DNA of 38,659 bases, from positions 1 to 38,659 of the forward strand of contig DQTL01000091.1 in NCBI GenBank assembly GCA_015662775.1. The letters are read 5' to 3'. Under the pieces are notes generated by a model that was not told the origin of the DNA, did no database searches, and was given only the letters and a program-made list of their open reading frames with translations. A program made the position numbers and the translations under genes. The DNA comes from Lutibacter sp. GTDB taxonomy: Bacteria; Bacteroidota; Bacteroidia; Flavobacteriales; Flavobacteriaceae. Below, in pieces: positions 5,767 to 38,659 of the stretch (positions are counted from its first letter, which is position 1; every line of letters starts with the position of its first letter).

Positions 5767-5810
5767 TTGTTCTTGTAGAGACGTTGCATGCAACGTCTCT
5801 ACAAGAACAA
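5767..5810. repeat. 44-bp perfect palindrome TTGTTCTTGTAGAGACGTTGCA/TGCAACGTCTCTACAAGAACAA
   Basis: The two 22-nt arms are exact reverse complements; the core GTAGAGACGTTGCATGCAACGTCTCTAC is shared with the array at 29641. Confidence 0.95.
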
Positions 5811-22528: not shown

Positions 22529-22708
22529 TTATTCTTTAACCTGAGTTCGACCTAAGCTTTGTTTACAGTTTGAACGAATTTTTAATCAATTCGAAGTTAT
22601 ATTTTTGAAGGACTAACTAGTTAATTGGATGAAATATAACAAGAATTGGGGAAAATTCATCAAATCCAAAGGAAGTGTTTCAATAGAAGCAATATTAATT
22701 TGAAACCT

Positions 22709-22743
22709 GTCATTGCGAATGAAATGAAGTGAAGCAATCTCTC
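22709..22743. repeat. Interspersed GTCATTGCGAA...GAAGCAATCTC element
   Basis: Ends match, in opposite orientation, the elements at 27517-27554. Confidence 0.65.
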
Positions 22744-27464: not shown

Positions 27465-27516
27465 AAAGGAGCTAAAGAGTGAAAGGGTTTTTGAAACAAT
27501 AACCAACTATCTTTAA

Positions 27517-27598
27517 GAGATTGCTTCACTCCATTGCATTTTGTTCGCAATGACTGACCTCAAATCAACATTACCCCTATTGAGATCAGTCATTGCGG
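27517..27598. repeat. Inverted pair of GTCATTGCG-type interspersed elements
   Basis: GAGATTGCTTC...TTCGCAATGACTGAcctcaa facing ttgagaTCAGTCATTGCG. Confidence 0.7.
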
Positions 27599-28508: not shown

Positions 28509-29645
28509 ATGAAAAATACAATCTTACTAATTACATTAGTACTCATACTCTTTTCTTGTAACACCAAGACAGAAGCACCAAAAAGCAATTTGGAAAAACT
28601 ACAAGCAGATCAGCTAAAAATACAAACAACAGTTGATAGTTTGCAAGTCGAATTAAAAAACATTGAAAAAGCCATAAAACAGCTAGATACGGTCAAAAAA
28701 TTGCAAAAAGTTACCTTTTTCACAACAAAAGACACACTGTTTAAGCATTATATCACTTTACAAGGTATGGTTGCTTCTGACCAGAATGTAATACTCAGAC
28801 CAGAAATGGCTGGTACCATACAGCGTATTTTTGTAAAAGAAGGACAACGGGTTTCAAGAGGACAAACATTGGTGCAAATTAATGCTGATGTTTTAAATGA
28901 TAAAGTAGTAGAACTTAAAACCCAATTAAGTTTAGCAACTACGACATTCCAACGTCAAGAACGCCTTTGGAATCAAAAAATTGGTTCTGAAATGCAATAT
29001 TTAGGGGCAAAAACGCAAAAAGAAGCATTAGAAAACTCCTTAAAATCGCTTCATACACAAATTGCTAAAATGAAAATAAAAGCACCTTTTACTGGTGTAA
29101 TTGATGCGATTATACCAAAAGTTGGTGAGTTGATTGGACCACAAACTTCTGTTATAAGACTAATTAATTTAAATAACGTATATATAGAAGCTGAAGTGCC
29201 AGAAACCTATTTATCAGTTGTTAAAAAAGGAACAGAAGTATTGGTTGATTTTCCATCTATCAATAAACAATTAATAGCTAGGATTAATAAAATTGGGAAT
29301 TATATAAACCCTGATAATAGGAGTTTTAAAATCCGTATTGCTATTCCAAATAAAAAGAATTTGATAAAGCCCAATTTGTTAGCCGATTTAAAAATTAATG
29401 ATTTTAAAGCTACAGGTGTGGTTTTACCATCTAATTTGATACAGATGAATCAAAAAGCTGAGAAATTTGTCTATACTGTTTTAAATGACAGTGCAAAAAC
29501 TACTGTGGTAAAAAGGATTTTAGAAGTAGGTCAAGAATACAATAACCAAGTAATTATTTTAAAAGGCGTAGAAGCTCAAGAACAAATAGTACTTGATGGT
29601 AGTAAGTTTGTTAAAGATGGTGACGAAGTAGAAATAACACAGTAA
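28509..29645 (+). CDS. RND efflux periplasmic adaptor subunit (MFP/HlyD-like lipoprotein)
   Basis: Lipobox 'LILFSCNTK'; coiled coil; 'GMVASDQNVILRPEMAGTIQRIFVKEGQRVSRGQTLVQIN'; directly upstream of the RND pump. Confidence 0.93.
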   Translation: MKNTILLITLVLILFSCNTKTEAPKSNLEKLQADQLKIQTTVDSLQVELKNIEKAIKQLDTVKKLQKVTFFTTKDTLFKHYITLQGMVASDQNVILRPEMAGTIQRIFVKEGQRVSRGQTLVQINADVLNDKVVELKTQLSLATTTFQRQERLWNQKIGSEMQYLGAKTQKEALENSLKSLHTQIAKMKIKAPFTGVIDAIIPKVGELIGPQTSVIRLINLNNVYIEAEVPETYLSVVKKGTEVLVDFPSINKQLIARINKIGNYINPDNRSFKIRIAIPNKKNLIKPNLLADLKINDFKATGVVLPSNLIQMNQKAEKFVYTVLNDSAKTTVVKRILEVGQEYNNQVIILKGVEAQEQIVLDGSKFVKDGDEVEITQ

Positions 29646-29727
29646 AGACGTTGCATGCAACGTCTCAACAGTAAAGACGTTTCAGAGCAACGCCTCAACG
29701 GTAAAGGCGTTGTACTCAACGCTCAAC
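29641..29727. repeat. Three tandem palindromic units of the RTAAAGRCGTTG...CAACG(Y)CTCAAC family
   Basis: 29641-29669, 29670-29699 and 29700-29727; the first shares GACGTTGCATGCAACGTCTC with the palindrome at 5767 and contains the adaptor stop codon (29643-29645). Confidence 0.88.
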
Positions 29728-32700: not shown

Positions 32701-33175
32701 ATTAGGTTTGGTCATGTTTAAAATGGATTTTGTCGTATTAATGACCATGATTGGAATCATTTCTTTAGCAGGAATTGTGGTAAACAATGCCATCGTTCTT
32801 CTCGATTATACGAGTTTAGTTATGAAACGAAAAGTACTAGAAAATGGCTTTGATGAGTTAGAGAAGATTGGAAACAAAAAAATACTTTTTGAAAGTATCG
32901 TAGAAGGTGGAAAAGTACGTTTACGACCTGTATTATTAACAGCCATCACTACAATACTAGGATTGTTGCCACTTGCAATAGGTGTCAATTTCAACTTTGC
33001 AACACTCTTTACTGAGTTTAATCCACAGTTTTATTTAGGAGGTGATAATACCGCGTTTTGGGGACCTATGTCATGGACAGTAATCTTTGGTTTGAGCTTT
33101 GCTACTTTCTTGACCTTGATTATTGTACCGATTATGTATTATTTATTGAATCGATTTAAACTTTGGCGGAAATAG
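29750..33175 (+). CDS. Efflux RND transporter permease (AcrB/HAE-like)
   Basis: 1141 aa; 'MPREAFPEVVIPQIFITTIHPGNSAIDIEKLITKPLEQEI', 'GMLVDNGIVVVENIYR', 'GIVVNNAIVLLDY', 'RLRPVLLTAITTILGLLPLA'. Confidence 0.96.
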   Translation: MKENINKEFKLSSWSINNKMTVFVIIFIILIGGYQSYKAMPREAFPEVVIPQIFITTIHPGNSAIDIEKLITKPLEQEINTISGIEKITSTSSQDFSMIVAEFDFSVTPEEALRKVKDKVDVAMSDSDFPKDLPSDPAIQELNISEMMPIMNINLSGEFSIDQLKEYGEYLEDKIESLPEISGVDIRGVQDKEVEIAIDLYKMQASEISFYDIAGVIQNENMTISGGELQENGIKRNVRVLGEFKRPDEIEDIIIKQEFGNIVYLRDIAEVNFQGEERVSYAREFMKPVVMLDVKKKGGKNLIEASEKINEILKKAKATVFPNNLEISVTNDMSNQTKKQVLNLENSIIIGVILVVLVLLFFLGLRNALFVGIAIPLSMLMSFMLLNMMGVTLNMMVLFGLILALGMLVDNGIVVVENIYRLYDEGHTLIKAAKLGVGEVAMPIIASTATTLAAFLPLAFWPGMMGQFMKFLPITIIIVLGSSLFVGLVVNPMLTSVYMKLKEKKLPLIKLSIYNGILLLIGFLLIFIGFEGNKGTSNAIGLVLVLFSLLWLLNYFAFTPATQWFQDKLLPWLEGLYERGLEFALKGWRPYAFLVGTFVLLIFSMLLMKMNPPKTLFFPETPPKQVFVFVEFPIGTDIEVTNNLTLTMESDIIDFIKKYEKNGKNFLITSVIGQVGEGTADPNQDMGSGNTPNKSRITIDFVDYEFRQGIDTQDVLDDIRKLVQKYPGVIISVDKPKDGPPAGAPVNIEVAGDDYYLIMHEAEKIKNYIEESSVVGYEELKLDVEQGKPELSVIIDRQKARRLALSTGQIGDALRTSIYGKEISTYKDGEDDYPINMRLHEKYRYNKDALMNQLITFRNQSNGKIVQVPISAVAKTENTTTFSAVKRKDLKRLITITSNVLNNYNATEVNDNLKKLLANYPLAKGINITFTGEQEEQAKMMAFLSNALLIALALIFLIIVGQFNSISTPVIISVSVLLSLIGVLLGLVMFKMDFVVLMTMIGIISLAGIVVNNAIVLLDYTSLVMKRKVLENGFDELEKIGNKKILFESIVEGGKVRLRPVLLTAITTILGLLPLAIGVNFNFATLFTEFNPQFYLGGDNTAFWGPMSWTVIFGLSFATFLTLIIVPIMYYLLNRFKLWRK

Positions 33176-33259
33176 GAACACAGTGATATGATGACTTTAA
33201 GTCATCTTATCACTAAATAGGAACACAGTGATACGATGACTTCAAGTCATCGTATCACT
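33170..33259. repeat. Two tandem 45-bp REP-like units, each with a 33-nt palindrome
   Basis: AAATAGGAACAC+AGTGATATGATGACTTTAAGTCATCTTATCACT (33170-33214) and AAATAGGAACAC+AGTGATACGATGACTTCAAGTCATCGTATCACT (33215-33259). Confidence 0.95.
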
Positions 33260-33270
33260 AAAAAATCATC

Positions 33271-33909
33271 ATGCAATTAGAAAAAGGACAACTATATCAT
33301 ATCTACAACCAAGGAAATAATCATAGAAAGATATTCTTTAAACGAGATAACTATTTGTTCTTTTTAAAAAAAGTAAAAACCTATATTTCTCCTTATGCAG
33401 ATATTGTTGCTTGGTGTTTAATGCCTAACCATTTCCATTTTATGGTTTATATAAGAGAGGTGGAAATTTCAGTTGAAAGTGATAAGTTGACTCAACAGAG
33501 TGATAAGATGACTCCAAGTGATCTTATCACTACTAACAAAAAACGAACTTTTAATAATTCTATAGCAATTATGCTTCGCTCTTATACTAGAGCAATCAAC
33601 AAACAAGAAAACGCATCAGGTTCATTATTTAAGGCTCATACCAAAGCCGAATGCATCAATTGCCACAAAGGAATTACTCCTTCCTTTATAATGCAAGACG
33701 CAGTTACAAAAATCAATTATCAAAATTCTGAAAAACAATATCCTCAGGTTTGTTTTAACTATATTCATAATAACCCAGTAAAAGCGGGTTTAGTTAGAAA
33801 TGCAATTGATTGGGAGTTTTCTTCTGCAAAAGATTATGCAGGTATTAGAAATGGAAAATTAATCAACAAAGATGTGGCTTTAGAATATATTGACAAGTTA
33901 TCAGAGTGA
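33271..33909 (+). CDS. REP-associated tyrosine transposase (Y1/IS200-like, RAYT-type)
   Basis: 'YHIYNQGNNHRKIFFKRDNYLFFLKKV', HUH-like 'CLMPNHFHFMVYI', 'IMLRSYTRAINKQENASGSLFKAHTKAECI', 'VCFNYIHNNPVKAGLV'; surrounded by palindromes. Confidence 0.92.
   Translation: MQLEKGQLYHIYNQGNNHRKIFFKRDNYLFFLKKVKTYISPYADIVAWCLMPNHFHFMVYIREVEISVESDKLTQQSDKMTPSDLITTNKKRTFNNSIAIMLRSYTRAINKQENASGSLFKAHTKAECINCHKGITPSFIMQDAVTKINYQNSEKQYPQVCFNYIHNNPVKAGLVRNAIDWEFSSAKDYAGIRNGKLINKDVALEYIDKLSE
33478..33531. repeat. Intragenic half copy plus full 33-nt copy of the flanking palindrome inside the transposase CDS
   Basis: AGTGATAAGTTGACT (from 33478) and AGTGATAAGATGACTCCAAGTGATCTTATCACT (33499-33531), in frame as SDKLTQQ-SDKMTPSDLIT. 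Confidence 0.9.
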
Positions 33910-33987
33910 TAAGATGAATTCGAGAAGCCACTTCAATGAGCGATTTGCTGAGTGAGTAATTAGATGACTTCGAGTCATCTAATTACT
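33904..33987. repeat. Downstream half copy (33904-33923) and full 33-nt palindrome (33955-33987)
   Basis: AGTGATAAGATGAATTCGAG supplies the TGA stop; AGTAATTAGATGACTTCGAGTCATCTAATTACT is a near-perfect palindrome with compensated stem changes. Confidence 0.9.
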
Positions 33988-38564: not shown

Positions 38565-38659
38565 AGACACAATTTATTGCGTCTCTTAATAATAGCAGAC
38601 ACAATTTATTGCGTCTCTTAATAATAGCAGACACAATTTATTGCGTCTCTTAATAATAG
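38561..38659. repeat. Tandem array, 32-bp period, of GAGACACAATTTATTGCGTCTCTTAATAATAGCA units, truncated by the window edge
   Basis: Three exact copies of AGACACAATTTATTGCGTCTCTTAATAATAG starting at 38565, 38597 and 38629; first overlaps the DUF4349 stop codon. Confidence 0.95.

Follow-up and report, generated by a model that had tools for sequence, protein, structure and literature searches.

A RAYT gene with a palindrome inside its coding sequence

The window, that is, the whole stretch of 38,659 nucleotides of a Lutibacter sp. contig (DQTL01000091.1) that was analysed, carries near its end a RAYT gene that is flanked by short palindromes and also contains one in frame. The features of the locus are the following:

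33182-33214, plus strand: 5' flanking REP copy 1, found by repeat family and consensus search
33227-33259, plus strand: 5' flanking REP copy 2, with a perfect 15-bp stem, ending 11 nt before the start codon
33271-33909, plus strand: RAYT/TnpA_REP gene (class-2 Y1 HUH endonuclease), an ORF of 212 aa
33430-33438, plus strand: HuH motif His54-Phe-His56, within the RAYT ORF
33478-33492, plus strand: half REP, a single 15-nt arm (AGTGATAAGTTGACT) read SDKLT, 21 nt upstream of the internal REP
33499-33531, plus strand: internal REP palindrome, 33 nt or 11 codons (77-87, SDKMTPSDLIT), phase 0, beta3-alphaC loop
33760-33777, plus strand: catalytic-type Tyr164 in YIHNNP, within the RAYT ORF
33905-33919, plus strand: half REP (AGTGATAAGATGAAT) of repeat family D2, whose TGA at 33907-33909 is the RAYT stop codon
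33955-33987, plus strand: 3' flanking REP copy, with a perfect 15-bp stem

When the window protein was searched as a single sequence, no strong match was obtained with Pfam or with phmmer against the PDB sequences (Pfam Y1_Tnp, 15.2 bits, cut-off 23), and the NCBIfam model NF047646 (REP_Tyr_transpos) was matched with an E value of 2.2e-13 and 50.3 bits (cut-off 80). The HUH/Y1 transposase fold is present in the AlphaFold model (mean pLDDT 86.8), for which the best match in a fold search over solved structures was 4ER8 (E 1.7e-7), the E. coli RAYT with a REP hairpin. The ORF can be aligned end to end with 78 homologues, and H54, H56, Y164, N168, and P169 are invariant in the alignment of 79 homologues. 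Also as in a RAYT, REP hairpins that recur in the genome stand on both sides of the gene, with three flanking copies and three more on other contigs. On its sequence and predicted fold, the window protein is a RAYT, a putative single-strand HUH endonuclease that recognises REP hairpins, an activity that we infer.

Several cysteines of this protein are conserved as well: Cys49 in all of the 79 homologues, Cys128 and Cys161 in nearly all of them, and Cys131 in all of the six closest ones. A metal site or a structural role is possible for these residues.

The internal REP (AGTGATAAGATGACTCCAAGTGATCTTATCACT) had been described in an earlier note made from the letters of the window, and its position, sequence, and frame were confirmed here, together with the half copy that begins at 33478 and the three flanking palindromes, which belong to the same family as the internal one. 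With a 3-nt loop, 14 of the 15 arm pairs are formed, and the 14 of 16 pairs given in that note are obtained when the loop is taken as 1 nt. The gene uses the only plus-strand frame that is free of stops across the palindrome, as both others run into TGA. The folding energy of the internal REP as RNA is -16.3 kcal/mol against a mean of -4.1 for shuffled sequences (z = -6.4, equalled by 0 of 200 shuffles), and folding as DNA gave z = -7.1. The palindrome is not a product of chance.

In the AlphaFold model, residues 70-90 form a loop that connects the HuH strand (54-67) to the helix at 94-112, and with a pLDDT of about 50-60 they are the least certain internal segment; the loop with the insert is thus predicted to be disordered. 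The arrangement of a half and a full REP in the window gene is also found in one homologue, L049. The second half REP forms the C-terminus of the window RAYT, and both upstream REPs lie within a 45-nt tandem unit (33170-33259); this half REP and the tandem unit had been overlooked in the earlier note.

The family consensus was searched in the whole 2.83-Mb genome with up to 3 mismatches. Of its seven sites, four are at the window locus and the others are single copies on contigs C103, C185, and C239; the reversed pattern, used as a control, had 0 matches in the genome. Two of the three copies away from the locus are intergenic, and the one on C239 lies in frame in a protein. No other copy of the exact in-gene variant was present in the genome at up to 3 mismatches.

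Distribution of the internal REP

The first relatives compared, from the same genus and order, already differed in their in-gene palindromes, which are of the GCGAAGGCTTCGC type in L009 and of the GTGTCGGCGTCGC type in L011, and in both cases the in-gene palindrome resembled the intergenic ones of its own locus. A scan of the collection added 80 loci from Flavobacteriales and Bacteroidales. In 60 of the 81 distinct Bacteroidota homologues, the segment from HuH to Tyr contains a 33-nt palindrome, for which the beta3-alphaC loop is the usual place, as would be expected of the lineage-wide feature suspected in the earlier note. The remaining homologues have half copies or none: the gene of L010 carries AGTAACACCGTAACT beside the flanking AGTGACACCGTGACT, that of L012 carries AGTCACCTGATGACT beside AGTCATCGGATGACT, and L107, L109, and L118 have flanking REPs and no recognisable internal REP. 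Many homologues come from metagenome-assembled genomes. The internal REP is not a metagenome artefact, because it is also carried by isolate genomes, namely Alkaliflexus imshenetskii (L115), Sunxiuqinia dokdonensis (L079 and L094), and Plebeiobacterium (L113).

A wider survey combined an independent sample of Bacteroidota genomes with a family-level search. In a distant second RAYT subfamily, with YIHFNP, YIHYNP, or YIHLNP as the Tyr motif and a different REP consensus, internal palindromes were found in the same loop; in L204/L199 and L206 the internal copies are like their own flanks, and L201 is a further example. No internal palindrome was found in the RAYTs of the Bacteroidota sample that have no flanking palindromes (L175, L176, and L179-L185), and a paralogue in the window genome, on C44 (L218), has flanking REPs and no internal one. 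Among mobile elements, the plasmid collection gave one weak homologue match (27% identity), the phage collection gave none, and the viral contigs gave one homologue, the L118 already mentioned, which is without the insert. The internal REP is lineage-wide and present in two or more RAYT subfamilies of Bacteroidota.

Turnover of the internal REP with the local REP family

Across the 81 homologues, the internal sequence varies by lineage yet fits the flanking palindromes of its own locus. The insert matched its own flanks at a mean of 12.43 of 15 arm positions and those of other loci at 9.80 of 15 (n = 60). In a permutation test, the summed match to the own flanks was 746, against a mean of 591 and a maximum of 641 in 20,000 permutations (z = 14.3, n = 60), and the co-variation of insert and local REPs that the earlier note had predicted thus holds strongly.

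Relatedness was controlled for by comparing each internal REP with its own flanks and with its nearest relative, which was taken from a tree that excluded the insert. The internal REPs differ on average at 5.3 of 33 positions from their own flanks and at 11.5 from the internal copy of that relative. The own flanks were closer than the internal REP of the relative in 40 loci, with 9 loci showing the opposite (p = 4e-6), and closer than the flanks of the relative in 38 loci, with 11 opposite (p = 8e-6). The same is seen between the paralogues L042 and L056, on contigs of one metagenome-assembled genome, whose internal REPs have 0 and 2 differences in 33 to their own flanks and 16 and 16 to the flanks of each other. 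In L051, L062, and L070 the unit starts at nt 210 of the gene in all three and the REP sequence of L062 is different, which would represent an in-register swap between relatives. These comparisons demonstrate a concerted turnover of the internal REP with the local REP family. Internal copies from another family than the flanks were found in L041, L077, and L113.

Two further variants were noted. In L041 (gene nt 208-250), L093 (199-253), and L105 (201-247), the palindromes extend symmetrically past the 33-nt unit to stems of 20-26 bp, which suggests quasi-palindrome correction by template switching. L106 has a REP variant with a loop of about 17 nt, and the loop sequence TATAAGCATCTTGC is common to the gene and the flank.

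Reading frame and protein-level constraint

Phase 0 is used by 61 of the 67 internal units, an excess that stops in the other frames partly force, but among the units with a choice of open phases, phase 0 still prevails by 42 to 4. This preference could also come from a single ancestral descent or from peptide tolerance. Units in other phases (for example, in L055, L060, L075, L091, and L105) point to some independent insertions. As a unit of 33 nt equals 11 codons, its exchange preserves the frame.

The differences between internal REPs and their own flanks were synonymous in 25.7% of cases against 22.9% expected, and hence the peptide shows no sign of constraint. The stems inside the genes are as intact as the flanking ones, with 13.98 and 13.90 of 15 pairs, respectively. 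The S-x-x-(M/V)-T peptides that the earlier note remembered from related transposases correspond to one REP family read in phase 0, but the peptides of other lineages differ, as in TEGSASSEAFG and SVGVAQSDTDA. Taken at the level of sequence, these observations are evidence for a change of the insert driven at the DNA rather than the protein level. In other words, a stretch of coding DNA appears to evolve under DNA-level dynamics.

REPs outside the usual RAYT loop

Copies of the REPs elsewhere are mostly intergenic. In 334 kb of non-RAYT ORFs from the same loci, about 9 REP-like palindromes were found, compared with 60 in 81 RAYT genes; this comparison set consists of the other ORFs of at least 200 aa, and some of the palindrome-bearing ones are doubtful or are themselves RAYTs. 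Second REP units of L062, L070, and L084 lie at residues ~117-137, in another variable region. The C239 copy of the window genome (L007, 1501-1533) is a same-family REP read in frame as SDTMTQSHRIT, and its host ORF looks like an unrelated, T9SS sorting-domain-like protein hit by a REP insertion. A further REP, in L155 (~664-696), is in frame (IHTMTQSHRMN) in a 422-aa histidine-kinase-like ORF, beside a DDGIGR motif. Short ORFs overlapping REPs in L143, L145, L153, L162, L168, and L173 were discarded as probably spurious.

Among the origins considered in the earlier note, a REP that was inserted and tolerated as a linker fits best with the disordered loop, the unconstrained peptide, and the in-frame REPs in a few other proteins. 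A birth of the palindrome family from the gene found no support, as REPs are mostly intergenic and many homologues are without the insert.

Explanations for the internal REP

The explanation that we favour, and hold to be probable, is self-targeting: a REP came to lie in a permissive loop of the RAYT and was later replaced in register by the current local REP family. The REP, a 33-nt palindrome of two 15-nt arms and a 3-nt loop, would be recognised by the RAYT, and copies of it would have been inserted in frame into the permissive, disordered beta3-alphaC surface loop of the RAYT's own gene. Repeated in-register replacement, either by RAYT-mediated REP-to-REP strand exchange or by replicative template switching between neighbouring hairpins, would then maintain the similarity of internal and flanking copies, and the swap of an 11-codon unit would let the insert track the local REP family while the enzyme is not destroyed. 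We treat as observed the position and frame of the insert, its match to its own flanks, its turnover between lineages, the unconstrained peptide, the predicted disorder of the loop, and the mostly intergenic location of REPs elsewhere, and infer that seeding and replacing are due to the activity of the RAYT itself. The internal copies of non-flank families in L041, L077, and L113 count against in-register replacement.

The self-targeting explanation also has to face internal palindromes that are perfectly paired and have no second copy in their genomes at up to 3 mismatches (G101, G107, G697, and G028), in assemblies which may be incomplete. Constant re-seeding from neighbours does not explain them, and they would reflect either selection on the hairpin, template switching within the hairpin, or recent loss of the donor. 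Because such perfect palindromes lack second genome copies, the main rival stays alive. According to this possible but distinctly less probable alternative, the hairpin inside the gene has a function in cis: the RAYT binds to it in its own gene or mRNA, limiting expression or marking the locus for processing, and selection forces the hairpin to track each change in REP specificity. The prevalence in 60 of 81 homologues, the recurrence in the second RAYT subfamily, and the equal integrity of internal and flanking stems all agree with such a function, but it sits poorly with the loci that have flanking REPs and no recognisable internal one (L107, L109, and L118), with the mere half copies of L010 and L012, and with the copy from another family in L041. 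Moreover, the perfect stems could equally be preserved by intra-hairpin template switching. The narrower proposal that Bacteroidota RAYTs bind the hairpin of their own gene, as single-stranded DNA at replication or as mRNA, and so limit their own dose is slightly more doubtful still. If this self-recognition were true, each shift in REP specificity would drag a stretch of coding sequence along.

Selection on the encoded peptide, for instance as a DNA-recognition loop, with the REP match as a by-product, is improbable. The loop does follow the HuH strand of the HUH fold, but a different REP family means an entirely different peptide, the loop is predicted to be disordered, and some homologues are without the insert; the explanation was rejected on the missing excess of synonymous differences. 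Even less likely is a single ancestral insertion followed by vertical inheritance and neutral drift, with no continuing exchange with the flanks. It would account for the loop that most homologues share and for their largely common codon phase, but we rejected it because the internal copies are far nearer to their own flanks than to the internal copy of the nearest relative, and because the paralogues L042 and L056 of one genome have unrelated internal REPs that each fit their own flanks. A chance palindrome, a gene-calling error, or an assembly artefact, which the many metagenome-assembled genomes might have suggested, was dismissed as next to impossible given the hairpin z of -6.4, the three isolate taxa, and the end-to-end alignment of the ORF with 78 homologues.

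Even over deep divergence, and also among paralogues of the same genome, the inner copy tracks the REP family of its locus, and it forms a built-in record tying the enzyme to its past and present targets. The spread of RAYTs and REPs is still poorly understood, and the inner copy offers a natural assay for it, with a turnover that is traceable between strains. Its role is accessible by synonymous recoding.

Relation to described TnpA_REP subclasses

In-gene REPs have been described in TnpA_REP subclass 2.4, where they are in frame and generally lie between HuH and Tyr (PMC6006769). This subclass corresponds to RAYT group 4 of Bertels and occurs in Bacteroidetes among others, and its in-gene REPs were considered unique to it and unlikely to affect the protein much (Quentin et al. 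2018; PMC6006769), in effect a curiosity of one subclass. The window clade is like subclass 2.4 in that REPs flank the gene and an in-frame REP lies in the variable beta3-alphaC segment, between HuH and Tyr (PMC6006769). The HuH and Tyr motifs of the subclass, NH[IFV]H and YIxNNP, are present in the window gene as NHFH and YIHNNP, and many of its relatives have YIHQNP instead. However, the WQ motif at beta4 is absent in the window clade, which has SLFK (window) or SLFR (consensus), F120 being followed by K or R. Subclass 2.4 has no conserved proximal tail (SS), whereas the window clade has WEFSS with S184 and S185 invariant. The REPs of subclass 2.4 have a GT[AG]G foot that those of the window clade are without: 164 flanking palindromes gave a consensus beginning with A-[GTC]-T-[CG]-A, and no conserved tetranucleotide of the GTAG guide type was found outside the stem of these palindromes. 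The 8-aa insertion of subclass 2.4 at the end of alphaB has no obvious counterpart in the window model, where beta1 is followed by one helix (25-38) and then by beta2, as judged by eye against the E. coli sequence. An assignment to subclass 2.4 was not made, given the lack of WQ and of the GT[AG]G foot and the presence of the double-serine tail.

Subclass 2.6 is Bertels group 5, of Bacteroidetes (PMC6006769), and shares with the window clade this distribution, the YIH[QN]NP motif, the SS tail, and REP-like structures without GT[AG]G (PMC6006769). It differs in that 21 aa are inserted between alphaC and beta4, its flanking structures are weak and atypical, and no REP has been reported inside its genes (PMC6006769), while the window clade has strong palindromes and its variable insert at beta3-alphaC. 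About 12 residues separate the helix at 94-112 from the strand at 125-128 in the window model, a comparison in which subclass 2.6 is represented by its description only.

The E. coli TnpA_REP (RAYT; PDB 4ER8) is similar to the window RAYT in fold, in the layout of HuH and Tyr, and in its flanking REPs, and we know of no internal REP in it. Its REPs are imperfect, GTAG-tagged hairpins (PMC8266576). Short palindromes in frame in unrelated protein genes are known from the Rickettsia palindromic elements and from intragenic REPs (PMC3733652); unlike the window REP, these lie outside their own cognate transposase gene and were not shown to follow a flanking family (PMC3733652). The literature searched contained no quantification of how internal and flanking REPs co-vary. 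The in-gene REP is real and known in kind, and it is wider and more concerted than published; added here are the concerted turnover, the extent across Bacteroidota RAYTs, and the evidence for a drive at the DNA level.

Other repeats in the window

A second repeated palindrome (GTAGAGACGTTGCATGCAACGTCTCTAC) is found at 5767-5810 and 29642-29670 of the window. With GTAG at its start and CTAC at its end, it resembles the REPs of TnpA_REP subclass 2.4 described as "double foot", so another REP system may be present in the genome. A dispersed repeat of the GCGAATGAAATGAAGTGAAGCAATCTCT type forms an inverted pair at 22680-22742 and 27516-27583, about 4.8 kb apart. Finally, three exact tandem copies of a 32-nt unit, each with an imperfect palindrome (AGACACAATTTATTGCGTCT), occupy 38565-38659 and run past the end of the window.
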